From the NCBI RefSeq assembly GCF_002163835.1, contig NZ_CP019331.1:2393001-2457000 (forward strand): DNA of 64,000 nucleotides. The letters are read 5' to 3'. The notes under the pieces are model-generated. The model saw only the letters and a list, made by a program, of their open reading frames with translations. It made no database searches and was not told the origin of the DNA. Shown in pieces: positions 35,614-56,368 of the stretch (within the stretch, counting starts at the first letter, position 1; every line of letters starts with the position of its first letter). The position numbers were made by a program, and so were the translations under genes. Source of the stretch: Polaribacter sp. SA4-10 (GTDB lineage: Bacteria > Bacteroidota > Bacteroidia > Flavobacteriales > Flavobacteriaceae).

Positions 35614-35657
35614 CTGATTGAAGTCATTGGTGTACGCTTATACTTTTAATAATTTAG
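35614..35657 (+). promoter_or_regulatory. FNR-like dyad + -7 box, promoter of lipoprotein-ldhA
   Basis: Dyad CTGATTGAAGTCAT (35614-35627), 22 bp, TAATTTAG (35650-35657, 7 of 8 to TAnnTTTG). The start site would be near 35661, just before the lipoprotein ATG at 35676. First of twelve promoters with this exact layout. Confidence 0.7.
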
Positions 35658-35675
35658 GAGTTGAAAATAAATATT

Positions 35676-36314
35676 ATGAAAAATCTAATATACATTTTAA
35701 CTCTAATAACCTTCTTTAGTTGTTCATCCATTAAAACAGTAGATCGTTGGAAAAGTAAAAACCATGCAGATTTTAAACCCCAAAAAGTATTAATTGTTGG
35801 AATTACGGAAAACTTAATCGCAAGAAGAATCTTTGAAGAGGAATTAAAAGAAGAACTAAACTTGAGCGGTGTTGAGGCTATGGAAAGCTATGAAATACTT
35901 ACACCTAAATTTACAAGTGAAAAACAAACTGAGGAAAATATTCAGGAAGAAATAGAAAAAATAACTAAAAATGGTTTTGATGCAATCTTAATTTCTGCGG
36001 TTAAAGGAATAGATGAAAAAGTAATTCACAATAATAATTATTATACAGATTATTACTACAGAAGACACCCTTTTAGACATTATTATTACTTACACCAAGA
36101 GGTGTATTTTGATACCGGTTATTATAATAAATATAAAATTTATCACGTAGAAACTTCATTATACAAACTAAAAGAAAATAATGATAAATCATTGGTTTGG
36201 GTTATTTCTAATAAAATAGTAGAACCTAGTTCAATAAATACAACGGTTAATGACTATGTAAGCGTTATTATAAAATCCTTAAAAAAAGAAGGCATCATTG
36301 TATCTAACAAATAA
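35676..36314 (+). CDS. DUF4136-like lipoprotein, paralogue 1
   Basis: 212 residues from ATG 35676, which starts the lipoprotein signal (LITFFSCSS, Cys16); a TTG at 35661 would lie at the transcription start and is rejected. The mature part (KVLIVGITENLIARRIFEEE, then DAILISAVKGIDEK) has the alternating pattern of DUF4136-like envelope proteins. A His/Tyr-rich loop (about 122-140, YYYRRHPFRHYYYL) may bind metal. A paralogue lies at 57529. ldhA starts 6 bp downstream. Role in the island unknown. Confidence 0.7.
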   Translation: MKNLIYILTLITFFSCSSIKTVDRWKSKNHADFKPQKVLIVGITENLIARRIFEEELKEELNLSGVEAMESYEILTPKFTSEKQTEENIQEEIEKITKNGFDAILISAVKGIDEKVIHNNNYYTDYYYRRHPFRHYYYLHQEVYFDTGYYNKYKIYHVETSLYKLKENNDKSLVWVISNKIVEPSSINTTVNDYVSVIIKSLKKEGIIVSNK

Positions 36315-36320
36315 TTACTC

Positions 36321-37331
36321 ATGAAAACACTTGTATACAGTGCTAAAGATTTTGAAATTCCTTATTTAGAAAAAGCGAATTGCAAAAAACATGAATTCAC
36401 TTTTTTAGAAGCGTCATTGTCATCAGAATCTGCAGTGAAAGCTATAGGATATGAGGCAGTTTCTATATCTTCATCAGGTAAAGCTTCAACAATTGTAATT
36501 GAAAAATTAAAAGATTTTGGTGTAAAATATATTACATTAAGAGCTGTTGGACATGATAATGTAAATTTAAAGGCTGCAAATACATTTGGAATAAAAGTGG
36601 CAAATGTGCCAGCTTATTCTCCATGCGCAATCGCAGAACATGCTGTAGGTTTATTATTAACATTAAATAGAAAGTTAATTGAAGCTAATAAAAGAGCAAA
36701 GTCTTTCAATTTTAACTTAAATAACCTGATTGGTTTCGATTTAAATAATAAAACAATAGGTATTGTAGGAACTGGTAAAATAGGTGCTATTATGACTAAA
36801 ATAATGCATGGTTTTGGATGTGAATTATTAGGGTATGATATTGTTGAAAATGAAGAATTAATCAAAAAATATGGAATGCAATATCAGTCTTTGGAAGCGC
36901 TATGTAAAAAGGCAGATATTATTTCATTACACGTGCCTTTAAATAGTGAAACGCATCATTTAATTGATGAAGATTTAATTGACAAAATGAAACCTGGTGT
37001 TGTAATAATAAATACTGCAAGAGGTGCAGTTTTAAATACAGAAGATGTCATTAAAGGTTTAAGAAGTGGAATTATTGGCGCTTTAGGAATAGATGTGTAT
37101 GAAAAAGAAAGAGGTCTATTTTTTACAAATCATTCTAATGATATTATTACAGATGAAATGATTATTAAATTAAACGCAATGCCGAATGTACTAATTACAG
37201 GTCATCAAGCTTTTTTAACTGAAGAAGCGCTAACAAATATTGCAGAAACAACAATTTATAATTTAGATTGCTGGAGTAAAAATAGAGAAACAGAAAACGA
37301 ATTAACGAAAACCGTTACAGAAACGGTATAA
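36321..37331 (+). CDS. ldhA: Fermentative D-lactate dehydrogenase
   Basis: 336 residues of the D-2-hydroxyacid dehydrogenase family, close in detail to E. coli LdhA. NAD-binding GTGKIGAIM, catalytic Arg in NTARGAVLNTED, Glu in the DVYEKERGLFF region and catalytic His in GHQAFLTEEALTNI. It regenerates NAD+ by reducing pyruvate to D-lactate under low oxygen. Co-transcribed with the lipoprotein from the FNR-like promoter at 35614. Its stop codon abuts the stop of the convergent L,D-transpeptidase. Confidence 0.92.
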   Translation: MKTLVYSAKDFEIPYLEKANCKKHEFTFLEASLSSESAVKAIGYEAVSISSSGKASTIVIEKLKDFGVKYITLRAVGHDNVNLKAANTFGIKVANVPAYSPCAIAEHAVGLLLTLNRKLIEANKRAKSFNFNLNNLIGFDLNNKTIGIVGTGKIGAIMTKIMHGFGCELLGYDIVENEELIKKYGMQYQSLEALCKKADIISLHVPLNSETHHLIDEDLIDKMKPGVVIINTARGAVLNTEDVIKGLRSGIIGALGIDVYEKERGLFFTNHSNDIITDEMIIKLNAMPNVLITGHQAFLTEEALTNIAETTIYNLDCWSKNRETENELTKTVTETV

Positions 37332-38261
37332 TCATTCTTTCTTCTTATAACCATAAATATCTTTTAAAATTAGGTTATTTCCATTACCCAAATCATTAAC
37401 TATTAAATCGTATCTAATCGTTATTTTAGTATTAATTGGTGCGTAATAATAAATAACCCAAGCAGCTGATTCATTTGTGCCAATACAGCCATTAGAAGAT
37501 GCTTTTCCTAGTGTAACTGGATTTGTTGTTGGATGAATTAATTGACCATAACGTACACCGTTTATTTCAGTTTCTATAAACGGAATTTGAGGTAATTTTG
37601 TTACTTTTTTATCATCTCTTTTTGTTACATAATATTGATATCCGTTAACAGGATTATAGAAATCTGGAAAACGTTCATGTCTTACAATTTTACCCTTTCC
37701 TGTTTTGGTTCTTAAATCTAAAATTCTTCCTGCCATTTTAAGATATTTTTTTTCATTTCTTCCAACTCTAACAGAAAAATTAAAAAGTTCTTTAGAGTTT
37801 TCAAAAATTCTGAGTTTATACTCAGGGATATTTACATCAATTTTTGTGTTTTCAAATGAGGTGAGCATCTTTTTTACTGAATTAATACTTGGTAAAATTA
37901 AAGTAGCTCCTTTTTTTAAAACAACCATTTTTTTCTGATTATAAACAAAAGAATCTTTTTCTTTCATTGTATAATAATCGGTATTTTTTAGGCTGTCAAT
38001 AATCCAAGGATTAGCTCTCACTAAAAGATGTTCTGTTAATTTGTAAGAGGTTATAGAATCGTATTTTAGAACAATTGAATCTAAGAATTGAAAGTAATTT
38101 TCTACAGAAATATCAGAATTAATAGGAATATTTTTTCTTAAATCAGTATTAAAAATCATTGTTTTCTCTTTTAGAGGAGTAAAAACATTTGAATAACTTA
38201 TACCAATAATTACTATCAAGAAAAAGACGATTAAAACCCCTAAATTAACCTTGTATTTCAT
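37332..38261 (-). CDS. L,D-transpeptidase (YkuD domain)
   Basis: 309 residues with an N-terminal membrane anchor (about 7-26). The YkuD catalytic core IHPTTNPVTLGK...SSNGCIGTNESAAW holds His and the nucleophile Cys. It forms 3-3 peptidoglycan cross-links or attaches proteins to the wall in the periplasm, a modification linked to stationary-phase hardening. It has its own FNR-like dyad promoter at 38292-38335. Confidence 0.88.
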   Translation of the reverse strand: MKYKVNLGVLIVFFLIVIIGISYSNVFTPLKEKTMIFNTDLRKNIPINSDISVENYFQFLDSIVLKYDSITSYKLTEHLLVRANPWIIDSLKNTDYYTMKEKDSFVYNQKKMVVLKKGATLILPSINSVKKMLTSFENTKIDVNIPEYKLRIFENSKELFNFSVRVGRNEKKYLKMAGRILDLRTKTGKGKIVRHERFPDFYNPVNGYQYYVTKRDDKKVTKLPQIPFIETEINGVRYGQLIHPTTNPVTLGKASSNGCIGTNESAAWVIYYYAPINTKITIRYDLIVNDLGNGNNLILKDIYGYKKKE

Positions 38262-38291
38262 TGATTAAATTTTTGATAAATTTTTGTTTCA

Positions 38292-38335
38292 TAAAGTTAT
38301 GTTTCCTAAAATAGAATTCAAATGATACTCATCAG
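38292..38335 (-). promoter_or_regulatory. FNR-like dyad + -7 box, promoter of L,D-transpeptidase
   Basis: Read on the minus strand: dyad CTGATGAGTATCAT (38335-38322), 22 bp, TAACTTTA (38299-38292, 7 of 8). Predicted start near 38288, 27 nt before the gene. Confidence 0.65.
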
Positions 38336-38347
38336 CTTAAATTACAT

Positions 38348-38391
38348 ATGATTAATATCATTTCATTTTTATAGAATTTTAACTTCTTTTA
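38348..38391 (+). promoter_or_regulatory. FNR-like dyad, promoter of gene 38416
   Basis: Dyad ATGATTAATATCAT (38348-38361) then, 22 bp on, TTCTTTTA (38384-38391, 6 of 8, the weakest of the set). It is divergent from the transpeptidase promoter; the two dyads lie 26 bp apart centre to centre. Confidence 0.55.
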
Positions 38392-38415
38392 CATAAGGGT
38401 TTAGGAAGTACTATT

Positions 38416-38919
38416 ATGAAAATAGAACATTTAGAAGAACGCGTTAATGATTACAAAGAATCTATAAAAACAGTTGTAGATAAAAAAACGCTGTGGCAAA
38501 GTAAGTCTAAAAAATTAATTATTAGAACTTTAAATAAAGTTGCTAAAAGTTATAATATTGGTTGGAGAGTGCAAGAACTTAATTGGATTTATAATAATGA
38601 AGCCATAAATATTACTTTTGATTCTTTTCCAAAAGATTTAATTGATTGTACAAATAAGATTCCTACGTATCAATTTATTCAAGGAGGCGCGTTGGTTTTT
38701 TCACAATCTTATAGTGGAGATGTGTATGTTCTTGCTCTTTTCCCTTATGTAGAACAATTGCAAGTAGAAAATAGTAGTTTAGACCTTGGTGTTTATAATC
38801 CTGAAGAAATTACAGAGAAACTTGTTATAGAAAAAGTAGATGAGTTTTTAAAAGAAATGATAAAATGGGAAGTTCCATCTTATAGAACCAAGTTAGGTTT
38901 TCAAAACAAAGAGATCTAA
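38416..38919 (+). CDS. Protein of unknown function in the stress island
   Basis: 167 residues, no signal peptide or membrane segment. An N-terminal helical part (1-50, EERVNDYKESIKTVVDKKTLW) is followed by a mixed alpha/beta part with aromatic residues (GWRVQELNWIYNN, YQFIQGGALVFSQS). I do not recognise the family. It carries its own FNR-like dyad promoter, so it belongs to the same response as its neighbours. It is convergent with the PNPOx-like gene, 13 bp apart. Confidence 0.7.
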   Translation: MKIEHLEERVNDYKESIKTVVDKKTLWQSKSKKLIIRTLNKVAKSYNIGWRVQELNWIYNNEAINITFDSFPKDLIDCTNKIPTYQFIQGGALVFSQSYSGDVYVLALFPYVEQLQVENSSLDLGVYNPEEITEKLVIEKVDEFLKEMIKWEVPSYRTKLGFQNKEI

Positions 38920-38932
38920 ACTATTATTTTCT

Positions 38933-39388
38933 TTAACGTAATCTTCTTTTTCCGGTAACTTCATCTATCGTTATTTTAAAAACTACAGGAAGCTTATCTG
39001 TATATGTTTTACTAGAAAATTCACTAATAAAATGTAAATTCTTTTCTTCTTTCCTTAAGATAAGATCTTTTATTCCATTGGTAAATTCATGTAAATATCT
39101 TTTTGCATCACTACCAGTAAGTTCTTTAAAAAATCCATGAGCCATTACAGAAGTCCAATTCTCATTTTTTTTTATTTCTGAAATTTGTATTGATACATTA
39201 TTGTTTTTTCGCATCGCCATCGTTTTATGACCTTCTGTAGAATAGCCAATAATATAAATATTTTTACCGTCAAAATAATAGGTAATGGGAACAATAAATG
39301 GTCTGCCTTTATATATATAAGCAAGTTGACCAATATAATTATCTGATAAAAGACTTATGCATTCTTTTTCGTTTAAACTTGTTAACAT
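38933..39388 (-). CDS. Pyridoxamine 5'-phosphate oxidase-like flavin protein
   Basis: 151 residues with the split-barrel fold of the PNPOx/NimA-like superfamily: CISLLSDNYIGQLAYI near the N-terminus, FIVPITYYFDGKNIYIIGYSTEGHKTMAMRKN in the centre, and SVMAHGFFKEL. It probably binds FMN or F420-like cofactor; an FMN oxidoreductase is most likely. Such proteins also recur in mycobacterial dormancy (DosR) clusters. Controlled by the FNR-like promoter at 39411-39454. Confidence 0.82.
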   Translation of the reverse strand: MLTSLNEKECISLLSDNYIGQLAYIYKGRPFIVPITYYFDGKNIYIIGYSTEGHKTMAMRKNNNVSIQISEIKKNENWTSVMAHGFFKELTGSDAKRYLHEFTNGIKDLILRKEEKNLHFISEFSSKTYTDKLPVVFKITIDEVTGKRRLR

Positions 39389-39410
39389 GATTTTAGCTTT
39401 TAATGAAAAA

Positions 39411-39454
39411 CAAAGCTATTTATAATTAAAGTTAAAAAGCATGACATGTATCAG
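39411..39454 (-). promoter_or_regulatory. FNR-like dyad + perfect -7 box, promoter of PNPOx-like gene
   Basis: Minus strand: dyad CTGATACATGTCAT (39454-39441), 22 bp, TAGCTTTG (39418-39411, 8 of 8). Predicted start about 19 nt before the gene. Confidence 0.75.
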
Positions 39455-39463
39455 TTAGAACAT

Positions 39464-40681: not shown

Positions 40682-40687
40682 TGGTGG

Positions 40688-41287: not shown

Positions 41288-41288
41288 T

Positions 41289-42196: not shown

Positions 42197-42502
42197 TTAT
42201 AGATTTTTAAAATGCTCGTAAAAAAGAAGTTTATTTTGTAAATCTGTTATTTCTTTTTTTAAGGAATCAACTTGATCTAATAAATTATAAATTACATCAA
42301 CTCCTTCTAAATTTATGTTGAGGTCATAATGCAAACGAATCATTTTTTCTACCTCGTTAATTTCTGTAATTTTAATATAATCTTGACTATCTGTTACAAT
42401 AATTTCTATTAATTCATACTCTCTTAATTCGTTGATGAATTTAACAGGAATACTGTAATGCTCACAAAAGCGCTGTATAGATATTAAGTTTTGAGTTTCC
42501 AT
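42197..42502 (-). CDS. cbpM: Chaperone modulator CbpM
   Basis: 101 residues with a MerR-like N-terminal fold (ISIQRFCEHYSIPVKFINELREYELIEI) and a C-terminal helix ending in coiled coil (DQVDSLKKEITDLQNKLLF). CbpM binds the J-domain of CbpA and blocks its action. It lies 2 bp after cbpA, the usual order. Confidence 0.87.
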   Translation of the reverse strand: METQNLISIQRFCEHYSIPVKFINELREYELIEIIVTDSQDYIKITEINEVEKMIRLHYDLNINLEGVDVIYNLLDQVDSLKKEITDLQNKLLFYEHFKNL

Positions 42503-42504
42503 AA

Positions 42505-43389
42505 TTAGCGTTGTTTTTGTAGTTCTTTAATTAACTCTTTCTCTTTTTCGTTTAAATTTGTAGGTATTTTAAGTTGGTAGGTTATAAATAAATCACCAAA
42601 CTGACCTTCTTTTTTATACTTAGGAAATCCTTTTCCTTTCAGTTTTACTTTTGTTCCGTTTTGTGTTTCTGGCTTAATCGTAAGTTTTACTTTTCCTTCA
42701 AAAGTAGCCACCATAAGGTGCCCACCTAACAAAGCTGTGTAAATATCTAAATCTATATTAATGTGAAGATTCTCTTTGTCTCGTTTAAATTTAGAATTAT
42801 TTATAATAGAAAACTGAATGTATAAATCGCCATTTGGACCGTTATTTACACCTTTTCCTCCATGTCCTTTTATTTTGATGATTTGTCCGTTTTCTACTCC
42901 TGCAGGAATTGTAATTCGGATGTTTTTTCCATTAACCGTTATTACTTGTTTTTGCGTTTTATAAACATCGCTTAAATTTAATTGGATCTCAGAATTATAA
43001 TCTTGACCTCTAAATTTTGCACTTGTTCTTCTGCCAGAAGAAGCGCCGCCAAACATGTTTCCAAAAATATTAGAAAAATCTTCTTGAGAATATCCTCCAG
43101 AAGAGCCTTGAGAACTTCTTTGGTATTTTTGTTGTCTTTGTTTTTCTTGTTCATAAGCTTCAGCATTTTGCCAATGCTCGCCATATTTATCGTATTTTTT
43201 TCTATTTACAGCATCACTTAAAACTTCATTAGCTTCATTAATTTCCTTAAATTTTTTTTCTGCATTTTTATCATTAGGATTTAAATCTGGATGATATTTT
43301 CGCGCCAATTTTCTATAAGCTTTTTTAATATCAGCTTGAGAAGCACTTTTGGTAAGTCCTAAAATTTTATAATAATCTATAAATGCCAT
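42505..43389 (-). CDS. cbpA: DnaJ-like co-chaperone CbpA
   Basis: 294 residues: J-domain (1-70) with the HPD motif in [12 protein letters not shown], a G/S-rich linker (85-125), then two substrate-binding beta domains. The zinc-finger domain of full DnaJ is absent, the hallmark of CbpA. It stimulates DnaK ATPase and binds curved DNA in E. coli, where it is a stationary-phase protein. First gene of a five-gene operon under the FNR-like promoter at 43421-43464. Confidence 0.92.
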
Positions 43390-43420: not shown

Positions 43421-43464
43421 TAAAAGTATTGGAAATAGCTTTCAGATAAAATGAGATTCATCAG
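43421..43464 (-). promoter_or_regulatory. FNR-like dyad + -7 box, promoter of cbpA operon
   Basis: Minus strand: dyad CTGATGAATCTCAT (43464-43451), 22 bp, TACTTTTA (43428-43421, 7 of 8). Predicted start about 28 nt before cbpA; drives five genes. Confidence 0.7.
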
Positions 43465-45245: not shown

Positions 45246-45289
45246 TAAATGTATTTTAAAATACGACCTAGTGAAATGATATTCATCAT
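45246..45289 (-). promoter_or_regulatory. FNR-like dyad + -7 box, promoter of WG gene and CBS-protease
   Basis: Minus strand: dyad ATGATGAATATCAT (45289-45276), 22 bp, TACATTTA (45253-45246, 7 of 8). Predicted start about 21 nt before the gene. Confidence 0.7.
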
Positions 45290-46152: not shown

Positions 46153-46196
46153 TAAAAATAGAATAATGAATGGTGTTAAATAATGATATTAATCAG
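46153..46196 (-). promoter_or_regulatory. FNR-like dyad + -7 box, promoter of TerB-like gene
   Basis: Minus strand: dyad CTGATTAATATCAT (46196-46183), 22 bp, TATTTTTA (46160-46153, 7 of 8). The dyad lies within the 140-bp gap to the kinase gene, so it could also affect kinase expression, but no box at the right spacing was found on the plus strand. Confidence 0.7.
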
Positions 46197-46269: not shown

Positions 46270-47514
46270 ATGCTAAATAACGAGAAAGATGTTTTTAACG
46301 TACTTTTTGAAGCTGTTTCAGAGGGTGTATTAGTTGTTAACGATCTACAAAAGATTGTTTCTGTTAATTCATCAATAGAAAAAATGTTTGGGTACAATAA
46401 AGATGAACTTATACATGAAAAGCTAGAGATTTTAATACCAAAAAGGTATCACCCAAATCATGGTTCTCATTTTAAGGGTTTTATGAAGCAAAAAGAGAAA
46501 AGGCAAATGGGTAAAGGGCGAGATCTTTATGGAGCTCGTAAAGACGGAACTGTTTTTCCTTTAGAAATTGGCTTAAATCCGTTTGAAATTCATGAAGAAA
46601 CTTTTGTAATGGCCTTGGTTATAGATGTTTCAATACGTAAACAACAAGAATTTGAAATTCTGAAACTAAATGAAGAACTAGAAATAAAGGTTGCTGAAAG
46701 AACAAGAGAATTAAGTAAAACGGTTCATGAATTAAAGGTTGTAAATGTTGAGTTAGATGCAGAAAATCAAAAAAGAATAGAAGCAGAAAATCATATTAAA
46801 GATGCGCTAAAAAAAGAAATAGAACTCAATGAATTAAAGACAAAATTTTTATCCTTAGTTTCTCATGAATTTAAAACACCTTTAAGCGGAATATTAACAT
46901 CTACTATGTTGTTAGGTAAATATAAATTAACTGAGCAACAAGAAAAAAGAGACAAGCACTTAGAAACAATCACAAATAAAATTCATTACTTAAATAATAT
47001 TTTAAATGACTTTTTATCAGTTGAAAAACTAGATTCAGGTCAAATAAATTATAAATTTCATACTTTTAAATTAAGTAAAGTTGTAAACGAAGTAATTTAT
47101 AATGCAAATATGCTTTTAAAAGAAGGTCAAAAAATTAATTACCCAGAAGATATTGATGAAATTTCATTAACCCAAGATGAAAAAATCATAGAATTATCAC
47201 TTTCTAATTTGCTAAACAATGCTATAAAATATTCGCCAGAAAATGCGGTAATTAATATTGAAGTAAAACAAGATAAAACATACACCACTTTTAAAGTAAA
47301 AGATAACGGAATTGGGATTCCAGAAGTTGATCAAAAAAATATTTTTAACCGTTATTTTAGAGCTGAAAATGCTTTACTAACCCAAGGTACGGGAATCGGT
47401 TTAAACATTATTAAGAGTCATTTAAAAAACTTAGGAGGAACCGTAACTTTTGAAAGTACAGAACATATTGGGTCAATTTTTACTATGAAAATTATTAATA
47501 AAGGAAAAAAATGA
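46270..47514 (+). CDS. PAS-domain sensor histidine kinase
   Basis: 414 residues: PAS domain (about 5-125), coiled coil (130-185), dimerisation helices with phospho-acceptor His199 in SLVSHEFKTPLSGI, and an ATPase domain (N-box NLLNNAIKYS, G1 KDNGIGIP, G2 GTGIGLNI). No membrane segments, so a cytoplasmic signal is sensed. The PAS resembles FixL: His64 (RYHPNHGSH) aligns with the FixL heme ligand His200 and Arg84 (GKGRDLYGARKDG) with FixL Arg220. Many non-heme PAS domains share these, so heme binding is only possible. Overlaps the regulator gene by 4 bp. Confidence 0.93.
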   Translation: MLNNEKDVFNVLFEAVSEGVLVVNDLQKIVSVNSSIEKMFGYNKDELIHEKLEILIPKRYHPNHGSHFKGFMKQKEKRQMGKGRDLYGARKDGTVFPLEIGLNPFEIHEETFVMALVIDVSIRKQQEFEILKLNEELEIKVAERTRELSKTVHELKVVNVELDAENQKRIEAENHIKDALKKEIELNELKTKFLSLVSHEFKTPLSGILTSTMLLGKYKLTEQQEKRDKHLETITNKIHYLNNILNDFLSVEKLDSGQINYKFHTFKLSKVVNEVIYNANMLLKEGQKINYPEDIDEISLTQDEKIIELSLSNLLNNAIKYSPENAVINIEVKQDKTYTTFKVKDNGIGIPEVDQKNIFNRYFRAENALLTQGTGIGLNIIKSHLKNLGGTVTFESTEHIGSIFTMKIINKGKK

Positions 47515-48551
47515 AAAAAATACTATTAATTGAAGATGATGTTGTTTTAAGAGAAAATACTTCAGAACTTTTAGAATTATCAAATTACAATGTAATTAAT
47601 GCCCCTAATGGAAAAAAGGGAGTAGAATTAGCACAAAAAGCGTTGCCAGATATTATTGTCTGTGACATTATGATGCCAGAACTAGATGGTTATGGCGTAC
47701 TTGAAGCTTTAACAAAAAACGACACAACAAAACACATCCCTTTTATATTTTTATCTGCAAAAACAGAGCGAAAAGATGTTAGAAAAGGAATGGATTTAGG
47801 TGCAGATGATTATATTACAAAGCCTTTTAGTGAAGAAGAGTTAATAAGTGCTATTGAAAGTAGATTAGCAAAAGCATCAATATTAAAAGATCTTAGAGAA
47901 AAACATGAAGAAGATGAAGAAGAAATAAGAAATCTTAATGATTTAAAAAATTTCTTTGATGATAATGGAAAAATATTTAATTTTTCAAGAGATAAATTAA
48001 TCTATAAAGAAGGAAACAATTCTAATTATATTTTTTTGATAAATAAAGGGCTTGTAAAATGCCATAAGTTAGATGAACAAGGTAAAGAACTTACAACTGC
48101 TTTGTTTAAAGAAGATGATTTATTTGGCTATACCTCTTTTACTCAAAATTTAGCGTATCAAGAATCTGCAACTGCAGTTAAAGACACGGAGTTAGTTGGC
48201 CTTTCTAAGCAAGAACTTACAAATGTTCTACACAGTAACCATAAAGTTACGTTAGAGCTAATACAACTGCTAACAGAAGATTTGGCAGGCGTAAAAAACC
48301 AGCTTTTACAAATGGCTTATAGTTCTGTAAATAAAAAAACAGCAACTACAATTTTACAATTTGCAGAAAAATTAAATCGTAAACCAAAAGATATAATAAG
48401 AATTTCTAGAAACGATTTAGCAAGTGTTGCAGGTATTGCAACAGAGACATTAATTAGAACAATGTCTAACTTTAAAAAACAAGGTATTATAGAAATTGAA
48501 GGTAGAAATATTAGAATTTTAGACTTAGAAAAACTTCAAGAAATCTGCTAA
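47511..48551 (+). CDS. Response regulator with CRP/FNR-type output domain
   Basis: 346 residues: receiver domain (1-122; acidic pair Asp9/Asp10, phospho-Asp52 in CDIMMP, Lys104), short acidic linker, cyclic-nucleotide-like beta-roll (about 150-260) and a CRP-type winged HTH (about 275-345). In the recognition helix (ATETLIRTMSNF, 310-321) Glu312 and Arg316 match FNR Glu209/Arg213 and CRP Glu181/Arg185, residues that read TGA half-sites; the FNR Ser212 position is Ile315. No FNR cysteines are present, so signal input is by phosphorylation. It is the likely activator of the dyad promoters around it. Confidence 0.92.
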   Translation: MKKILLIEDDVVLRENTSELLELSNYNVINAPNGKKGVELAQKALPDIIVCDIMMPELDGYGVLEALTKNDTTKHIPFIFLSAKTERKDVRKGMDLGADDYITKPFSEEELISAIESRLAKASILKDLREKHEEDEEEIRNLNDLKNFFDDNGKIFNFSRDKLIYKEGNNSNYIFLINKGLVKCHKLDEQGKELTTALFKEDDLFGYTSFTQNLAYQESATAVKDTELVGLSKQELTNVLHSNHKVTLELIQLLTEDLAGVKNQLLQMAYSSVNKKTATTILQFAEKLNRKPKDIIRISRNDLASVAGIATETLIRTMSNFKKQGIIEIEGRNIRILDLEKLQEIC

Positions 48552-48572: not shown

Positions 48573-48616
48573 ATGACCAATATCATATTTTAAAAAGCGT
48601 TCAAACAATAGATTTG
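48573..48616 (+). promoter_or_regulatory. FNR-like dyad + perfect -7 box, promoter of USP 1
   Basis: Dyad ATGACCAATATCAT (48573-48586), 22 bp, TAGATTTG (48609-48616, 8 of 8). Predicted start about 19 nt before the gene. Confidence 0.75.
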
Positions 48617-48638: not shown

Positions 48639-49481
48639 ATGAAAACTATTTTATTACCCACAGATTTTTCAGATAACTCTTGGAACGCCATTGAGTACGC
48701 AATTAATTTTTTTAAAGATTCTAATTGCAACTTTTATTTATTGCACGTTAATAAATTAAGTAACATTGTAACTAATGATTACCCATATATTCCTACGCAA
48801 GATATAATTGAAGATGTTTACATAAAACCAGCAAAGACAGAATTAAAGAAAATACTTAAAAAAATAGCAACAAAATTTCCCAATAATAAAAAGCATAAAT
48901 TTTACACTTTAACAGATTATAACTTTTTTATAGATTCTCTTAGAAAACATATAGAAGAGAAAAAAGTAGATATGATTGTTATGGGAACAAAAGGTGCCTC
49001 TGGATTAAGTAAATATATTATTGGAAGCAATACTGGTGATGTTATTACAAAAGTAAAATGCACCACTTTAGTTGTACCAGAGAATGCGAAATTTAAAAAA
49101 ATAGAAGAAGTTGCTTTCCCTACAGATTTTAGTTTAACTAATGATTTACAATTATTACATCCAATTGCAGAAATTTTAGAAGAGAACGATTCCTCATTAA
49201 GAATAGTAAATATTAGTAAAAGATCTGCAAAATTAAATATTGAGCAACAAAAAAACAAAGAATTACTAGAAGATTATTTTTTTAATTATAAACACAGTTT
49301 TCATTTTTTAACAAATAAAAAAGTAGAAGCTGCAATACAGTGTTTTGTAGAAAGCAGAGATATAGACATTATTACAATGGTGGCAAAAAATCTCAATTAT
49401 TTTCAACAAATATTATTTCACACAAAGGTAGAAGAAATTAGTTATCATACAGATGTTCCTTTTTTAGTTCTGCATGAATAA
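48639..49481 (+). CDS. Universal stress protein, tandem-domain 1
   Basis: 280 residues with two USP folds. The first (1-150) keeps the ATP-binding pattern VMGTKGASGLSKYIIGSNTG...VVP; the second (150-280) is degenerate. The N-terminus ILLPTDFSDNSWNAIEYAI is typical of Bacteroidota USPs. They bind ATP and support survival in growth arrest. Followed after 12 bp by a small membrane protein in the same unit. First of four USP genes in 4.6 kb. Confidence 0.9.
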   Translation: MKTILLPTDFSDNSWNAIEYAINFFKDSNCNFYLLHVNKLSNIVTNDYPYIPTQDIIEDVYIKPAKTELKKILKKIATKFPNNKKHKFYTLTDYNFFIDSLRKHIEEKKVDMIVMGTKGASGLSKYIIGSNTGDVITKVKCTTLVVPENAKFKKIEEVAFPTDFSLTNDLQLLHPIAEILEENDSSLRIVNISKRSAKLNIEQQKNKELLEDYFFNYKHSFHFLTNKKVEAAIQCFVESRDIDIITMVAKNLNYFQQILFHTKVEEISYHTDVPFLVLHE

Positions 49482-49890: not shown

Positions 49891-49934
49891 CTGATATATG
49901 TCATTTTACATCAATTGGATACCCTGTAAATTAG
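49891..49934 (+). promoter_or_regulatory. FNR-like dyad + -7 box, promoter of leader/small RNA
   Basis: Dyad CTGATATATGTCAT (49891-49904), 22 bp, TAAATTAG (49927-49934, 7 of 8). Unlike the other eleven, the next gene starts 220 bp downstream. Confidence 0.7.
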
Positions 49935-49937
49935 TAC

Positions 49938-50100
49938 AATAAATAAAGCGCTCTTTTCTTTGAATTGCCATTATTAAAAAGAGACCTAGATTATTTATAA
50001 AATAGTTTAGGTTAAGAGATTTCGTTGTTATTAAATTTTTTGGGTTTATTAATAATTTAAAGCTCTTCTAAAACGGGGGGATTTTTCTTCCTGTTTTTTG
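49938..50100 (+). ncRNA. Candidate small RNA or structured leader before hpf
   Basis: Transcript predicted from the dyad promoter. Contents: a 13-bp hairpin with a 3-nt loop (ACCTAGATTATTT / AAATAGTTTAGGT, 49984-50012, two wobble pairs), and a terminator-like hairpin AAAACGGGGGGA / TCTTCCTGTTTT (50070-50097, 12 pairs including wobbles) followed by T residues. No start codon or convincing small ORF was found inside. It could end as an independent RNA, or read through into hpf. Confidence 0.45.
50070..50099 (+). terminator. Terminator/attenuator-like hairpin before hpf
   Basis: 12-pair stem (three G-U) with a TTTT loop and TTTTTT at its 3' end, located 56 bp before the hpf start. Confidence 0.55.
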
Positions 50101-50154: not shown

Positions 50155-50457
50155 ATGACAATAAATATTCAATTTGTAAATATGTCTACAAGTGATACTA
50201 TGGAGACATACACAGTAAAAAAATTAGATAACTTATTTAAAAAATTCGATTGGATACTAAAAGCCAAGGTCTTTTTTAAAAGAGAGATTACTCATAAAGA
50301 AAAAGAAGTAATTTGTGAAATAGAATTAAGCATTCCTGGACCAAGAGTATTTGCTTCTTCTAATGAAAAAAATTATGAACTTGCTGTAAAAAACACAATA
50401 ATAGATTTACAAACACAATTAAAAAAGAGAAAAGGAATTGTAAAACCTTATATGTAG
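50155..50457 (+). CDS. hpf: Ribosome hibernation promoting factor (short HPF/RaiA)
   Basis: 100 residues of the S30AE fold: INIQFVNMSTSDTMETYTVKKL at the N-terminus, then a beta strand with EVICEIELSIPGPRVFASS and a C-terminal helix LQTQLKKRKG. Short HPF inactivates ribosomes by forming 100S dimers (with RMF) or by blocking the A/P sites. It follows the FNR-like promoter and small-RNA candidate at 49891-50100. The length matches short HPF; the C-terminal dimerisation domain of long HPF is absent. Confidence 0.9.
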   Translation: MTINIQFVNMSTSDTMETYTVKKLDNLFKKFDWILKAKVFFKREITHKEKEVICEIELSIPGPRVFASSNEKNYELAVKNTIIDLQTQLKKRKGIVKPYM

Positions 50458-50481
50458 AATTATCTAGTTGCTGTTTTCTAG

Positions 50482-50525
50482 ATGATGTATGTCATTGTGT
50501 TTTGTTAAACTCAAATGTAATTTTG
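50482..50525 (+). promoter_or_regulatory. FNR-like dyad + perfect -7 box, promoter of USP 2-3
   Basis: Dyad ATGATGTATGTCAT (50482-50495), 22 bp, TAATTTTG (50518-50525, 8 of 8). Predicted start near 50529 decides the USP 2 start (ATG 50549), ruling out an upstream ATG at 50489. Confidence 0.78.
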
Positions 50526-50548
50526 AGCAAACCTTTAAAAAACACCCA

Positions 50549-51397
50549 ATGAAAAAAATATTAATTCCAATTGATTTTTCAGAAAACGCTAACAATGCTA
50601 TAAAATATGCATTAGAATTGTTTAAAGAGGAGTTTTGCAAGTTTTACTTTTTACATGCATATCAAGAAGGTATTTATAGAAGTGATGCTCCAATTAGCAA
50701 AGAAACAATTAATGAGATTATTAGAACTGTTGGAAAAGAATCTCAATTAAACCTAAAACTAGCGTTAAAGAAAATTAAAAATTTTTCTCCCAATTTAAAA
50801 CACACCTATAAAATTTTATCTGCCAATAACATTCTTGTAGATGAAGCAGAAAAGGTTGTAGATGAAGAAAACATAGATATTGTTGTAATGGGAACTCGCG
50901 GTAAAACAAATGATAAAAAGTTAACCTTTGGCAGTCATACTTTACAAGTTTTAAAATATGTAAAATGTCCTGTTTTGGCGATTCCAGAAAATTATGAGTT
51001 TAAAGAACCTAATGATATTCTTTTTGCAACAGACTATAGCATGTCTTATCAACAAAGAGAATTAGAACTTTTAAGTAAAATAGCTACTGATAATAAATCT
51101 AAAATAGATGTACTTTATATTTCAGACAGCAATTATTTATCTCTTAGACAAGAACAGAACAAATCTGTTATAAAAGAAAATTTAAAAAATACCAAGATTC
51201 ATTTTATAGTTACTAATGATAAAAATATTTCAAATGAAATCTATAATTATATAAGAAATTATGAGGCAGATATTTTAGTTATGATAAATAGAAGGCATTC
51301 TTTTTTAGAAAATATTCTATTTCAAGATACTGTAGATAAAATTAGTTTGTCTATTGATATTCCGTTTTTAGCATTACAAAACATGAGACGTAATTAA
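50549..51397 (+). CDS. Universal stress protein, tandem-domain 2
   Basis: 282 residues from ATG 50549 (MKKILIPIDFSENANNAIKY), placed by the promoter. Two USP folds; the first has VVMGTRGKTNDKKLTFGSHT...VLAIP, keeping the ATP-site Gly pattern with GSHT in place of the usual GSNT. The second fold lacks the ATP-site motif. Followed by USP 3 after 23 bp, likely one unit. Confidence 0.88.
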   Translation: MKKILIPIDFSENANNAIKYALELFKEEFCKFYFLHAYQEGIYRSDAPISKETINEIIRTVGKESQLNLKLALKKIKNFSPNLKHTYKILSANNILVDEAEKVVDEENIDIVVMGTRGKTNDKKLTFGSHTLQVLKYVKCPVLAIPENYEFKEPNDILFATDYSMSYQQRELELLSKIATDNKSKIDVLYISDSNYLSLRQEQNKSVIKENLKNTKIHFIVTNDKNISNEIYNYIRNYEADILVMINRRHSFLENILFQDTVDKISLSIDIPFLALQNMRRN

Positions 51398-51420
51398 TGT
51401 AGAAATTAAAAAACAGGAAC

Positions 51421-52263
51421 ATGAAAAAAATACTATTACCAACAGATTTTTCAGATAATGCATGGAATGCAATACAGTATGCTCTCAAGTTATTTAAAAA
51501 TGAAAAATGCACTTTTTATTTATTAAATAATTGTTATCCAGTAATTTATGGTGTAGATTATATGGAGGTTTATAGTGCGCAATCTGGTTTAATGGATGCA
51601 GTATTAAGTGCATCAAAAGAAAAATTAGAAGCGCTTCATCAAAAAATTAGTAAACAATTTAAAAACCCAAACCATACATTTAGCAAAATATCTTCTGTTA
51701 ATACATTGGTTAGCGAAATAGAAGAGTTACAACTTGGCAATCTAATGGATTATGTTGTGATGGGAACCAAAGGCGCATCTGGACTTAAAGAGGTTTTATT
51801 GGGTTCAAATACAGTTCGTGTAATTAATAATGTAAGGTGCCCAGTTTTGGCGATTCCAAGTGATTTTGATTTTGAACCTCCTCGTGAAATTTTATTTCCC
51901 TCAGATTATGAAGTGTCTTTTAATGATAAACACATAGCGCCAATATTAGAAATTGTAAAAGCTAATAATTCAAGAATTAACATTTTAAATGTGTTAAAAG
52001 GAGCTGAATTAACAAGCAATCAAAAATTAAACCAACAAAAACTTAAAGAATATTTTAAAAATACAGCACATCTATTTCATAGTGATGATAAACAGCATGT
52101 AACAGAGGCAATTACTAATTTTCAATTAAAAGCCCGTGTTAATTTATTAGTTATGATTAACAATAAAAATTCGTTTTTAGAAAAATTGTTTTTTAAATCT
52201 ACTGTAAATCAAATGGGCTACCATTTAAATATTCCGTTTTTAGTAATTCCTTCAGTAATTTAA
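51421..52263 (+). CDS. Universal stress protein, tandem-domain 3
   Basis: 280 residues, two USP folds. First fold motif VVMGTKGASGLKEVLLGSNT...VLAIP is intact; the second is degenerate. The N-terminus ILLPTDFSDNAWNAIQYAL is close to USP 1. No dyad of its own was found, so it is probably read from the USP 2 promoter. Confidence 0.88.
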   Translation: MKKILLPTDFSDNAWNAIQYALKLFKNEKCTFYLLNNCYPVIYGVDYMEVYSAQSGLMDAVLSASKEKLEALHQKISKQFKNPNHTFSKISSVNTLVSEIEELQLGNLMDYVVMGTKGASGLKEVLLGSNTVRVINNVRCPVLAIPSDFDFEPPREILFPSDYEVSFNDKHIAPILEIVKANNSRINILNVLKGAELTSNQKLNQQKLKEYFKNTAHLFHSDDKQHVTEAITNFQLKARVNLLVMINNKNSFLEKLFFKSTVNQMGYHLNIPFLVIPSVI

Positions 52264-52273
52264 ATGTATTAGT

Positions 52274-52317
52274 TTGATTTATATCATTTTAACATATTTA
52301 ATTTCGGGTTAAATTTA
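52274..52317 (+). promoter_or_regulatory. FNR-like dyad + -7 box, promoter of USP 4 operon
   Basis: Dyad TTGATTTATATCAT (52274-52287), 22 bp, TAAATTTA (52310-52317, 7 of 8). Predicted start about 23 nt before the gene; drives at least USP 4, the eRF1-like, the ATP-cone nuclease, the beta-CASP nuclease and the helical gene. Confidence 0.72.
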
Positions 52318-52343
52318 TATCAAAATAGTTAATAATTCATAGT

Positions 52344-53198
52344 ATGAAACGTAAAATATTAGTACCAACAGATTTCTCAAAAAATTCTTGGAATGCTATA
52401 AAGTATGCGTTAGAATTATATAAAAGTGATGAATGTATTTTTTACTTTTTAAATGCTTTTTCGGCAACACAAAATGTTTTTGATAATCTAATAAATTTTG
52501 AACCTGGAAGCGAATTATATGAGCTTTCAAAAGCAAAATCAGAACAAGGTTTAGTAAGAATTTTAGACCTGTTAGATATTGAAGATCAAGAAAACCCAAA
52601 ACATCATTTTGAAACAATTTCAATGTTTAATTATCCTTTAGAAGCAATAAAAAATAGTGTCGAGAAAAAAGATATAGAAATGATTGTAATGGGCACAAAA
52701 GGAGAAACAGATTCAAGACACATTCCTTATGGAAGTACCGCAATTTATGTGATGGAAAAAGTTAGAAATTGTCCTGTAATTGTTGTTCCAGAAAAAGCAA
52801 AACACACGTTGCCAAAAGAAATTGTTTTTCCAACAAGTTATAAAACACATTATAAAAGAAGAGAATTAATCTACCTGATAGATATCGCTAAAAAATGTGA
52901 TGCTAAAATTGAAATACTACATATTTCGGAAGAAGAAAAATTAGATAAAAATCAAAAAGAAAACAAACAACTGCTTAAAGAAATTTTTGAAGATGTTTCC
53001 TATTCTTTTCATGAGCTAAGTTATAACTCAGTTGAAGCTGCAATAAACATTTTTATTGAAAGTAGAGATAGTGATATGGTTGCATTTATTAATAAAAAGC
53101 ATTTCTTCTTTGGTAGTGTTTTAACACAACCTCTTGTTAAAGAAGTGGGCTTTCATTCTAAAGTTCCAATACTAGTAATGCACGATTTAAGAAACTAA
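52344..53198 (+). CDS. Universal stress protein, tandem-domain 4
   Basis: 284 residues, two USP folds. The first has VMGTKGETDSRHIPYGSTAIYVM...VVVP with the GST form of the ATP site. It is the most divergent of the four. First gene of a five-gene unit (52344-56303), gaps 3-22 bp. Confidence 0.88.
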   Translation: MKRKILVPTDFSKNSWNAIKYALELYKSDECIFYFLNAFSATQNVFDNLINFEPGSELYELSKAKSEQGLVRILDLLDIEDQENPKHHFETISMFNYPLEAIKNSVEKKDIEMIVMGTKGETDSRHIPYGSTAIYVMEKVRNCPVIVVPEKAKHTLPKEIVFPTSYKTHYKRRELIYLIDIAKKCDAKIEILHISEEEKLDKNQKENKQLLKEIFEDVSYSFHELSYNSVEAAINIFIESRDSDMVAFINKKHFFFGSVLTQPLVKEVGFHSKVPILVMHDLRN

Positions 53199-53211
53199 AA
53201 ACATAAAAAAG

Positions 53212-53613
53212 ATGAAAAATATAGGAATTTGGTTAGACAAAAGTAAAGCACTTATTGTAACAATAACAGCAGAAACAGAAACATTAGAAACCGTTATTTC
53301 AAATGTAGAAAATTTTCATATTCATGGAGGATCAGGAACCCGTTTTAAAGGAGGTCCACAAGATGTAGTACAAGACAGCAGGTATTTAGAAAGAGAAAAA
53401 AATCAATTTAAAGTTTATTTTGATGAATTAGCTTTAAAAATAAAAGAGGCAGATGGTATCATAATTTTTGGTCCTGCAGAGGTAAAGGATAAATTAAAAA
53501 GTGAGTTAGAAGCTTCTTATAGTGAAATAAATGCAAAAGTAAAAGCGGTACAAGTTGCAGATAGTATGACAGAGAACCAAGTAAAAGCTTGGGTGAGAGA
53601 TTTCTTTAAATAA
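53212..53613 (+). CDS. eRF1/Pelota-like domain protein
   Basis: 133 residues. The start NIGIWLDKSKALIV and the later ADGIIIFGPAEVKDKLKSEL resemble the bacterial eRF1-like (baeRF / translational-machinery) domain family, which in some members releases or rescues stalled ribosomes. The central HGGSGTRFKGGPQDVV loop is Gly-rich. It lacks the GGQ motif, so peptide release is doubtful. Located between USP 4 and the nuclease genes. Family call is moderate, function inferred. Confidence 0.55.
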   Translation: MKNIGIWLDKSKALIVTITAETETLETVISNVENFHIHGGSGTRFKGGPQDVVQDSRYLEREKNQFKVYFDELALKIKEADGIIIFGPAEVKDKLKSELEASYSEINAKVKAVQVADSMTENQVKAWVRDFFK

Positions 53614-53635
53614 AAACAATTTTTTATTTTTCAAT

Positions 53636-54487
53636 ATGAATGATCAAGACATTAGTATCATTAAGTATTCTGGTGAAAAAGTAAAGTTTTCTGTGAACAA
53701 ACTTTATACTTCATTAAAAAGAACGGGTGCTGAAGATGCAATTGTAAATCAGATCATAGAAAAAGTAATAGACGAACTTTACCAAGGAATTACCACTAAA
53801 GAAATTTACAACAGAGCTTTTTCACTACTTAAAAAAAAGAAAAGCTTTTTAGCCTCTAAATACAAGTTAAAAAAAGCAATTTATGAATTAGGACCAACTG
53901 GTTTTCCTTTTGAAAGATTTGTTGCTGCTATTTTAAAATATTCTGGATACAATGTTGAAGTTGGAAAAACTTTAAACGGAAAATGTGTAAAACACGAAAT
54001 AGATGTTTTTGCAAATAAAAATAATGAAACCACAATTATAGAATGTAAATTTCATAGCGAGCAAGGTTTTAATTGTAATGTAAAAGTTCCTTTATACATT
54101 AATTCTCGCTATCTAGATGTAAAATTTCATTGGGAAGAAAAAAATAAAACTAAAAGTAAATTAACAAAAGGTTGGCTTGTTACAAATACAAGATTTACAG
54201 AAGATGCATTGCAATATGGAAACTGCTGTGGGTTGTATTTATTAAGTTGGGATTATCCTAAAAACGATGGATTAAAAGACAGAATAGATCGTTTAGGGTT
54301 ATATCCAATTACAGTTTCTACGTTGCTTACAAATAGAGAAAAGCAGTTTATTTTAAACAGAAATGTTGTGTTATGTAGAGACTTAATAGATGATGCTTTT
54401 TACTTAGATCATTTAGGTGTTTCTAATAGTAGAAAGGAAAAAATACTTAATGAAATAAAACAATTATGTAACACCAAAAATTATTAA
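53636..54487 (+). CDS. ATP-cone plus Mrr-like restriction endonuclease fold
   Basis: 283 residues. Residues 1-90 form an ATP-cone (IIKYSGEKVKFSVNKLYTSL), known as a nucleotide sensor in ribonucleotide reductases. Residues about 95-180 carry a PD-(D/E)XK nuclease core: KHEIDVFANKNN then TTIIECKFHS, with Asp and E-x-K. So a nucleotide-gated nuclease is likely; DNA or RNA target unknown. There is no methylase nearby, so it is not a classical restriction system. Adjacent to a beta-CASP nuclease (3 bp). Confidence 0.78.
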   Translation: MNDQDISIIKYSGEKVKFSVNKLYTSLKRTGAEDAIVNQIIEKVIDELYQGITTKEIYNRAFSLLKKKKSFLASKYKLKKAIYELGPTGFPFERFVAAILKYSGYNVEVGKTLNGKCVKHEIDVFANKNNETTIIECKFHSEQGFNCNVKVPLYINSRYLDVKFHWEEKNKTKSKLTKGWLVTNTRFTEDALQYGNCCGLYLLSWDYPKNDGLKDRIDRLGLYPITVSTLLTNREKQFILNRNVVLCRDLIDDAFYLDHLGVSNSRKEKILNEIKQLCNTKNY

Positions 54488-54490
54488 AAT

Positions 54491-55864
54491 ATGGAACATT
54501 TTGCTAAAATAAAATTTTTGGGAGCTTCAGGAGTGGTAACAGGTTCTAAATTTCTTATTGAAACTTCAGAGAAAAACATACTTATAGATTGTGGTATGTT
54601 TCAAGGGTTAAAAGAACTTAGAGAACTTAATTGGAAAGACCTTTCTGTAAATGTTAAAGAGATTGATGTTGTTCTTTTAACACATGGTCATTTAGATCAT
54701 GTTGGCTATTTACCAAGATTAGTAAAGCAAGGTTTTAAAGGGAAAATTATTGGCACAGCACCCACTTTATCAATTGCACAAATTATATTGAAGGATAGTG
54801 CTAAAATTAATGAAGAAGAAGCAGAAAAAGCAAACAAAGAACAGTATACAGAATATAACCCAGCAATCCCTTTTTATACAATTAAAGAAGCAGAAAGTAC
54901 AATTAATCAATTTGAAGTAGAAATTGAAGGAAAGTGGATCGTTTTATCAGAAAATATAACGTATCGTTTTCAGTATAATGGACATATTATTGGTGCCACA
55001 TTTATAGAAATAGATATGAACGGTAAACGCTTTGTATTTTCTGGAGACATTGGCAGAAGTAATGATTATTTACTTGATGATCCAAAAACTCCTGAATGGG
55101 CAGATTTTTTATTTATTGAAAGTACTTATGGAAGTAAATTACACTCAGATGAAGATGTAGAAGAGAAATTAGCAGGTATTATTATTGATACAATTCATCA
55201 AAAAGGAAACCTTATTATACCAAGTTTTGCCGTAGAGCGCTTGCAGACCCTAATGTATATTCTTTGGAAATTATACAAGGAAAATAAGATTCCGGATATT
55301 CCTATTTTTATAGATAGCCCAATGGGCAACAATGTTTTAGAGGTTTTTAAACGTTTTCCAAAATGGCATAAATTACCATTGGAAGAATATAATGCCATGT
55401 GTGATCATGTAAATATTATTCAATCTTACAAAGAAACTTGGGAAACGATAGACAATAAAAGATCTAAGATAGTAATTGCAGGAAGTGGAATGGTAACAGG
55501 AGGTAGAGTACTTACTTATTTACAGCAATTGATAGATGAACCGTCTACAACAGTTTTATTAGTTGGTTATCAAGCAGAGGGAACACGTGGAAGACAGCTT
55601 CAGGAGGGCGCACATGAAATACGTTTTTATGGTAAATATTATCCAGTAAAAGCTGCTGTAAAAACCTTAGAGGGTTTATCTGCACATGCAGATCAGCAAG
55701 ATTTAATAAATTGGATGAGAAATATTAAAAACATTCCAGAAAAAGTATATTTAATTCATGGAGAACCAACAGCTTTAGATGCTTTTCGAGTAAAAATAAA
55801 AGATACTTATAATTGGAATGCAACGATTCCGAAACTTGAATCTGTAGAAGAGGTAGTCATTTAA
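54491..55864 (+). CDS. MBL-fold beta-CASP nuclease (Ysh1-like)
   Basis: 457 residues. Metallo-beta-lactamase core with LLTHGHLDHVGYLPRL (zinc ligands), the FSGDIG motif, then the beta-CASP insert and the RMMBL C-terminus with LSAHADQQDLINWM and IHGEPTALDAF. This is the RNA-processing endonuclease/exonuclease family (COG1236/YSH1 type). It would cut or trim RNA in the cytoplasm. In the USP 4 operon between the ATP-cone nuclease and the helical gene. Confidence 0.9.
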   Translation: MEHFAKIKFLGASGVVTGSKFLIETSEKNILIDCGMFQGLKELRELNWKDLSVNVKEIDVVLLTHGHLDHVGYLPRLVKQGFKGKIIGTAPTLSIAQIILKDSAKINEEEAEKANKEQYTEYNPAIPFYTIKEAESTINQFEVEIEGKWIVLSENITYRFQYNGHIIGATFIEIDMNGKRFVFSGDIGRSNDYLLDDPKTPEWADFLFIESTYGSKLHSDEDVEEKLAGIIIDTIHQKGNLIIPSFAVERLQTLMYILWKLYKENKIPDIPIFIDSPMGNNVLEVFKRFPKWHKLPLEEYNAMCDHVNIIQSYKETWETIDNKRSKIVIAGSGMVTGGRVLTYLQQLIDEPSTTVLLVGYQAEGTRGRQLQEGAHEIRFYGKYYPVKAAVKTLEGLSAHADQQDLINWMRNIKNIPEKVYLIHGEPTALDAFRVKIKDTYNWNATIPKLESVEEVVI

Positions 55865-55880
55865 TTAATATCTAAATAAA

Positions 55881-56303
55881 ATGGAAACAATACATTCTTA
55901 TAAAAGCTTTAATGAAAAAAAATCTATTGAAGAATTAAAGTATAATATGCTTCAATACAAAACAAGATTAGAAGAAGTAATTATAGAAAATAATTTTTAT
56001 AAAAACCTTCTAAAAGCATCAATTTACAAATCAAATACAATCAATTTATTTGAAAACTTAGAACAATTTAAAAGGAACCTTACTAATATTGAGACAGCAG
56101 TTTCAGAATTAGTACTTGAAATAAACGCACACTCACATTCAATTACTAATAAAATTGAATGTGATGATTTATTTTGTGATAATTTCTTTATAAAAATACA
56201 GGATGATTTAGAAGAGAAAATTTACCAATTCTTTCTTAAATCAACAGCCTTTAAAAGACAAATGCTTCAATATTTAGAAAGTGTCTTAAAAAAGAATAAT
56301 TAA
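55881..56303 (+). CDS. Helical protein of unknown function 1
   Basis: 140 residues, largely helical (SIEELKYNMLQYKTRLEEVI, FKRNLTNIETAVSELVLEIN). No signal peptide. Size and pattern weakly resemble the protein at 57068, suggesting paralogy, but I am not sure. It ends the USP 4 operon, 101 bp before hsp20. Confidence 0.6.
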   Translation: METIHSYKSFNEKKSIEELKYNMLQYKTRLEEVIIENNFYKNLLKASIYKSNTINLFENLEQFKRNLTNIETAVSELVLEINAHSHSITNKIECDDLFCDNFFIKIQDDLEEKIYQFFLKSTAFKRQMLQYLESVLKKNN

Positions 56304-56324
56304 TTTTATATTTTTTGTAACAGA

Positions 56325-56368
56325 CTGACTGTCGTCATTTTGATAAACGTTTTACATCTATAAATTTG
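56325..56368 (+). promoter_or_regulatory. FNR-like dyad + perfect -7 box, promoter of hsp20
   Basis: Dyad CTGACTGTCGTCAT (56325-56338), 22 bp, TAAATTTG (56361-56368, 8 of 8). Predicted start about 33 nt before the gene. Confidence 0.78.

Follow-up and report, generated by a model that had tools for sequence, protein, structure and literature searches.

The window analysed here, a stretch of 64,000 nucleotides (nt) from Polaribacter sp. SA4-10 (contig NZ_CP019331.1, GC content 29%), contains an island of Usp, chaperone and redox genes, together with genes for a histidine kinase and for a response regulator in which a receiver domain is fused to a Crp/Fnr-type protein. Twelve copies of one promoter-like element are found in the island, each made up of a 14-bp dyad and, 22 bp further on, a box of the form TAnnTTTG. 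A preliminary description of this DNA had proposed the layout, had likened it to FNR-dependent promoters and had assigned about 25 genes to a single activator.

All twelve dyads are present where they had been reported (Table 1). The window holds 15 copies of the motif TGAY-N4-RTCA, compared with 3.27 ± 1.75 expected, and none of 100 shuffles reached 15; eleven of these exact dyads belong to the described sites, and the twelfth site, at 43451 (CTGATGAATCTCAT), departs from the consensus at one base. In its better orientation each of the twelve is followed at 22 bp by the box, with 6/6 constant bases in four cases (at the very positions named before), 5/6 in seven and 4/6 in one. The probability of at least 11 of 12 boxes with 5/6 or better is about 1e-16 as a position-wise estimate from the window, uncorrected for the sites having been picked with the layout in mind; since it ignores this picking, the spacing tests given below (own genome, 13 relatives, 80 loci) carry more weight. 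The four remaining exact dyads of the window lie outside the island and have boxes of 0–4/6 in either orientation. Predicted leaders of 14–32 nt agree with the earlier claim of short start-to-codon distances for eleven of the twelve sites; at 49891 the nearest gene start is 216 nt off. The orientations, also claimed, need two corrections: 49891 precedes a structured RNA, and 46183 fits the minus strand only (TATTTTTA) and faces the divergent gene, the start codon of which lies 24 nt past the box; read toward the kinase, its box AAATGTAG has just 3/6.

Table 1. Sites, genes and predicted RNA of the island (window positions; box matches are constant bases out of six)
Feature	Position	Strand	Operator and box	Gene behind the site, or basis
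Site 35614	35614..35657	+	35614-35627; TAATTTAG 35650-35657 (5/6)	gene with ATG 35676
Lipoprotein-like gene	ATG 35676			by eye
D-2-hydroxyacid dehydrogenase	36321-37331			downstream of 35614 site; Pfam 2-Hacid_dh
L,D-transpeptidase (YkuD)	37332-38261			Pfam
Site 38322	38292..38335	-	38322-38335; TAACTTTA 38292-38299 (5/6)	L,D-transpeptidase
Site 38348	38348..38391	+	38348-38361; weak box TTCTTTTA 38384-38391 (4/6)	gene 38416-38919
PPOX-family gene	38933-39388			Pfam Pyridox_ox_2
Site 39441	39411..39454	-	39441-39454; TAGCTTTG 39411-39418 (6/6)	PPOX-family gene
MerR_2-type gene	42197-42502			Pfam
DnaJ-type gene	42505-43389			Pfam
Site 43451	43421..43464	-	43451-43464; TACTTTTA 43421-43428 (5/6)	DnaJ-type and MerR_2-type genes
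M50 peptidase with CBS domain	43495-44583			Pfam
Site 45276	45246..45289	-	45276-45289; TACATTTA 45246-45253 (5/6)	gene 44619-45221 and M50 peptidase
Site 46183	46153..46196	-	46183-46196; TATTTTTA 46153-46160 (5/6)	gene 45716-46129, not kinase
Histidine kinase with FixL/DosP-like PAS (His64, Arg84)	46270..47514	+		Pfam, PDB phmmer, fold, residues
Response regulator REC-cNMP_binding-HTH_Crp_2	47511..48551	+		Asp52; reading helix ATETLIR
Site 48573	48573..48616	+	48573-48586; TAGATTTG 48609-48616 (6/6)	Usp1 48639-49481
Site 49891	49891..49934	+	49891-49904; TAAATTAG 49927-49934 (5/6)	structured RNA
Predicted non-coding RNA	49939..50098	+		predicted start at box end +5; 3' terminator-like hairpin
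S30EA / ribosome hibernation factor-like protein	50155..50457	+		Pfam Ribosomal_S30AE
Site 50482	50482..50525	+	50482-50495; TAATTTTG 50518-50525 (6/6)	Usp2 50549-51397 (Pfam Usp); Usp-like gene 51421-52263
Site 52274	52274..52317	+	52274-52287; TAAATTTA 52310-52317 (5/6)	Usp4 52344-53198 and three genes
Genes after Usp4	53212-53613; 53636-54487; 54491-55864			second ATP-cone/Mrr-like, third beta-CASP metallo-hydrolase; Pfam
Site 56325	56325..56368	+	56325-56338; TAAATTTG 56361-56368 (6/6)	Hsp20 56405-56854 (Pfam)

When the own genome was scanned for the dyad plus TAnnTTTG, spacers of 8–38 N being allowed, 34 matches were obtained, of which 24 had the 22-bp spacer (four in the island, 20 perfect sites outside it); a reversed pattern as control gave 11 matches with variable and one with fixed spacer. 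At least one site with the 22-bp spacing was present in 48 of 58 genomes of the genus. Regulator loci of 20 kb from 13 genus relatives contained 72 sites at spacing 22, with no more than one box mismatch, against 0–8 at other spacings, and the gene after the regulator was preceded by a site in all 13. A wider set consisted of the 80 best of 410 loci around the fusion regulator, from Polaribacter, Kordia, Olleya, Winogradskyella, Tenacibaculum and other genera, close relatives among them not being independent; it yielded 362 sites at spacing 22 (a single box mismatch being tolerated) versus 6–25 at each other spacing, and 130 perfect boxes versus 0–4. Start codons were found 10–39 nt downstream of 276 of the 362 sites, compared with 93 of 412 at control spacings. 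The 22-bp promoter layout is established by these computations, and it is conserved at orthologous promoters of relatives. Two of the conditions which the earlier description had named as refuting it, equally frequent dyads at random sites and lack of conservation at orthologous promoters, do not apply. Chance inverted repeats beside ordinary promoters would be conceivable in a window so rich in AT; this reading, which now has practically no probability, is already refuted by the spacing test, since spacing 22 is strongly enriched in each set tested; in addition, the shuffles fall short of the observed number of dyads, and the four exact dyads of the window that lie outside the island have no box.

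Sigma-A boxes of Flavobacterium psychrophilum are placed at −12 to −5 (PMC9723704). Because of this box position and the 22-bp spacer, the dyad spans −48 to −35 with its centre at −41.5, the class II position; the FNR/CRP-type class II layout proposed earlier is supported. From the 362 sites the operator is read as [AC]TGAY-N4-RTCAT and is asymmetric: the outer base is A (176), C (160), G (14) or T (12) upstream, and T in 345 and A in three downstream. The last base of the box is G (200) or A (156), which gives TAnnTTT(G/A), and positions 15–19 past the dyad are rich in T/A without a fixed TTTG, so that a −35/−33 element appears to be dispensable. The position is that of FNR/CRP-type activators, but both outer bases differ from the FNR consensus TTGAT-N4-ATCAA. 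In FNR, contact with the outer T is made by the reading-helix residue at the I position; the I position of the E-x-x-I-R helix found in the proteins described below would suit a changed outer operator base.

Outside the island, sites precede genes for pyruvate-formate lyase, phosphotransacetylase and an FNR homologue, and a cbb3-type oxidase operon, in which a small ccoS-like open reading frame (ORF) is followed by an ORF that combines COX1 and FixO domains; others precede genes for a Usp, a CBS protein, YceI and two pyridine-nucleotide oxidoreductases, among others. The layout is common to many marine flavobacteria, in which it seems to turn on a programme for survival at low oxygen.

The kinase of the island has the Pfam domains PAS-HisKA-HATPase, and its gene overlaps that of the receiver-cNMP-Crp protein by 4 bases. 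The 13 best PDB sequence matches of the PAS domain (phmmer) were FixL and DosP heme domains. In a fold search with the PAS model (mean pLDDT 80, weakest residues about 61–83), FixL, DosP and another heme PAS were best and the 19 best rows were heme PAS domains, a LOV domain coming next at 15.1; rows with Z differing by less than 1 count as tied. Four of the 80 loci yielded no kinase for the count, one of them having no regulator ORF, which left 76 kinases and 79 regulators; apart from one kinase without PAS match (L077, a short ORF), residues were counted in 75 kinases, on the first PAS domain, the longer kinases carrying a second. His64, aligned with the heme His of FixL and DosP, was kept by every kinase of both sets examined (14 of 14; 75 of 75). 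Arg84, the distal Arg, was present in the window kinase and 68 of 75 relatives. The corresponding His of the FixL and DosP PAS domains is the proximal heme ligand. The kinase is probably a heme oxygen sensor, as predicted from these comparisons.

The partner protein carries a Response_reg domain (E 4.8e-29, residues 4–116), unlike the receiver-less FixK, and its output part is cNMP_binding plus HTH_Crp_2 and not a LuxR/FixJ-type HTH (Pfam). Asp52 and the reading-helix motif E-x-x-I-R are kept in 79 of 79 fusion proteins; no Cys cluster is seen in the sequence of the window protein, the model of which had a mean pLDDT of 78 and a pTM of 0.38. Island-type fusions occur in 14 of the 58 genus genomes. 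In 75 of 79 loci the fusion gene is followed by a 22-spaced site, and in the 5' regions of the kinases a site points toward the divergent side in 49 of 76 and toward the kinase in five. A second fusion regulator, with the reading helix ETAIR, is encoded at 1301 kb of the own genome. A PAS kinase of 606 aa in another locus (L054 654-2474) has a site 183 nt upstream, keeps the His in the FixL place and has Met for Arg; it could possibly be the partner of the second fusion.

The E-x-x-I-R helix is common to three Crp/Fnr proteins of the own genome, namely the FNR homologue, the island fusion and the second fusion; with these three proteins, and with 20 more perfect sites elsewhere, the idea of a single activator for about 25 genes could not be upheld. 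Among 26 distinct FNR homologues (L056 type), picked by BLAST alone, Cys4, 7, 29 and 106 and E-x-x-I-R are present in all; the cysteines are N-terminal and central, and an Fe-S cluster is predicted. The Cys spacing of Escherichia coli FNR is different. A fourth Crp/Fnr protein (L059, G000:C1 2601-2612 kb) has a different reading helix; CxxCH motifs occur in the product of the neighbouring gene, and a single perfect site lies upstream and another downstream.

In 20 stretches from six genomes which lack the fusion, operators with the same outer bases and the same spacing were found at cbb3-oxidase and other genes; the genes behind these sites we take to be ccoS/N, a CcoI-like ATPase, pta, and MoaA-like and copper-nitrite-reductase-like genes. 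Since operator and spacing are shared, a non-fusion protein, most simply FNR, should suffice for the layout. The FNR homologue alone might activate all promoters including those of the island, with kinase and receiver-Crp protein serving other targets; its reading-helix residues are the same, and the layout without fusion extends to three Usp genes. We consider this unlikely, because the site follows the fusion gene almost regularly and because sites are more numerous where the fusion is present: in genus genomes of at least 90% completeness, the median is 13.5 with fusion (n = 14) versus 6 without (n = 31; P 7e-7), or 3.3 versus 1.7 sites per Mb, uncorrected for phylogeny. Because the layout exists without the fusion, yet is tied to its gene and is more frequent in its presence, overlapping control by fusion and FNR is favoured; the two may differ in oxygen sensitivity. 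As a further possibility, the fusion alone could be the island activator and respond to a cue other than oxygen (redox, nitric oxide or another PAS ligand), FNR being inactive here. The tight linkage of sites and fusion gene, the incomplete conservation of Arg84 and the status of heme binding as a prediction would agree with it; the heme-PAS best matches, the invariant His64, and the helix and operator type common to FNR and fusion speak against it, and it appears even somewhat less probable than activation by FNR alone.

Several observations weigh against joint control by the fusion and FNR in response to low oxygen. In 71 of 76 loci no site points toward the operon of kinase and regulator itself. 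Some sites of the own genome stand before genes for which a role at low oxygen is not evident; one of them, with outer bases T and A, precedes a glycoside hydrolase family 3 gene. In the fusion-lacking genomes, four of the 30 Usp loci examined have sites, three of them 26–32 nt before the Usp match, therefore control of Usp genes without fusion exists. Genome G053 has 17 sites without an island-type fusion, but carries the second fusion type. Operators of the island and of the FNR core look alike, so that the sequence does not tell the occupant. Arg84 is replaced in seven of 75 kinases, and two compared kinases near the second fusion type are without the aligned His (one ORF starts past it). 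The site counts are not corrected for phylogeny.

On balance, we think it likely that the twelve sites serve a low-oxygen regulon as activator-dependent promoters of class II, with an operator read both by the fusion and by FNR, the fusion being switched by the heme-PAS kinase. The activator dyad would cover the −35 region, with a 22-bp spacer to the sigma-A −7 box TAnnTTT(G/A), and its readers would be the Cys-containing FNR homologue, the island fusion and, elsewhere, the second fusion. Most likely, oxygen would leave the heme-PAS domain, upon which the kinase would phosphorylate the adjacent fusion and so turn it on; in effect, a FixL-FixJ-FixK cascade would be shortened to two proteins. 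The fusion would drive the Usp, Hsp20, DnaJ, hibernation-factor and redox genes and the structured RNA, and FNR would read similar sites at the cbb3 oxidase, pyruvate-formate lyase and pta genes.

Between the 49891 site and the next gene there is no ORF of 15 or more codons, and in other genera the same operator precedes putative ORF-less transcripts with a common 5' stretch and a terminator. The clustering of ORF-less sites (61 sites; overlapping loci, one mixed cluster of 24) served for finding candidates only. An alignment of 14 sequences, excluding the window copy, supports 42 pairs with 92.8% of cells paired (slid controls, 39–52%); 15 pairs changed on both sides, with 26 such cells versus 8.2 in shuffled alignments (0 of 500 reaching it), although the structure was derived from this same alignment, so that the support leans to it. 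Model R1 was trained with the window copy, which it matches by construction, and R2 without it. R2 matched the window at 49932-50098 (37.2 bits, E 1.9e-8 for 2 kb) with filters off; under default filters the window copy was missed by both. Untrained copies start 1 nt past the box in L077 and 4 nt past it at five promoter units in L050. In the own genome, with 150 of 5895 first-look candidates scored, R1 listed eight matches in two places, the window and a five-unit 490-bp array. Two to four tandem copies (E <1e-7) were found in six loci (L095, L119, L129, L130, L131, L140). The RNA has about 160–220 nt and four helices in the model. Rfam 15 at gathering thresholds gave only Flavo-1 in the window, elsewhere (RF01705, 54 bits, 31121-31192, minus strand), and none for the RNA at 49939-50098; the family appears to be undescribed within the material searched.

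The array (L050 4425-6907, G000:C1 about 1298.4–1300.9 kb) comprises five units of 490 bp which lie in tandem and are nearly identical (TRF, 5.1 copies, 95% matches), each with operator CTGATCTAGATCAT, box TATCTTAG and RNA matches, and adjoins the second receiver-Crp gene; weak Rfam matches in L050 4200-7100 were far below gathering scores and were judged to be chance, terminator-like hits. A second, shorter type of ORF-less transcript (about 100 nt) with terminator was noted behind the same operator in L110, L114, L119 (after 12066), L123 and L146 (after 12016), and a similar one in L101 and L137; GCTATTAATC occurs in five of these seven loci. Three genus loci without fusion (L149, L157, L160) have a conserved ORF-less stretch and terminator behind ATGATAATTATCAT-N22-TAATTTTG, possibly an FNR-driven small RNA or leader.

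With the operator-plus-spacing rule, likely low-oxygen regulons can be read out from sequence in a large and poorly studied marine family; the likely sensor and activators of its low-oxygen programme are named, and a structured RNA family with covariation support is added behind the same promoters. In the abstracts and passages covered by a search of the open-access literature, neither the rule nor the fusion circuit nor the RNA was found described, subscription papers being outside the scope.

At class II FNR/CRP promoters of E. coli, an activator dyad at −41.5 replaces the −35 region. The flavobacterial sites share this position and replacement; in contrast, they use the Bacteroidetes −7 box, their outer bases are A or C on the upstream and T on the downstream side, where FNR sites have T and A, and the spacing is fixed at 22 bp across loci of many genera. 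The promoter class is known, and the flavobacterial operator code, together with a fused regulator and a heme-type kinase, is a new variant. The DosR dormancy regulon of Mycobacterium has a heme-sensor kinase and is rich in Usp, Hsp20, CBS and redox genes; the island resembles it in both respects (the heme sensor being predicted here), and differs by a Crp/Fnr fusion rather than a NarL-type regulator and by its operator. FnrS of E. coli (compare PMC8595263) is likewise a non-coding RNA behind an FNR-type promoter, whereas the flavobacterial RNA has the length and four helices given above, tandem copies in several genomes and no Rfam match. The rhizobial FixL-FixJ-FixK and hFixL-FxkR-FixK systems with FnrN (compare PMC7888657) share a heme-PAS kinase (predicted here), a two-component relay, and a Crp/Fnr activator that has no Fe-S cysteine set and occurs together with an FNR of the Fe-S type (again predicted here) whose reading-helix residues are the same. 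In the Flavobacteriaceae, receiver and activator are one polypeptide, therefore there is no separate FixJ step, and among the targets in the island Usp and chaperone genes predominate. Taken together, it seems somewhat more probable than the opposite that a compressed FixL-FixJ-FixK circuit, a class II operator code shared with FNR and a DosR-like dormancy island are combined here, with a tandemly repeatable RNA as the non-coding arm of the response to hypoxia.

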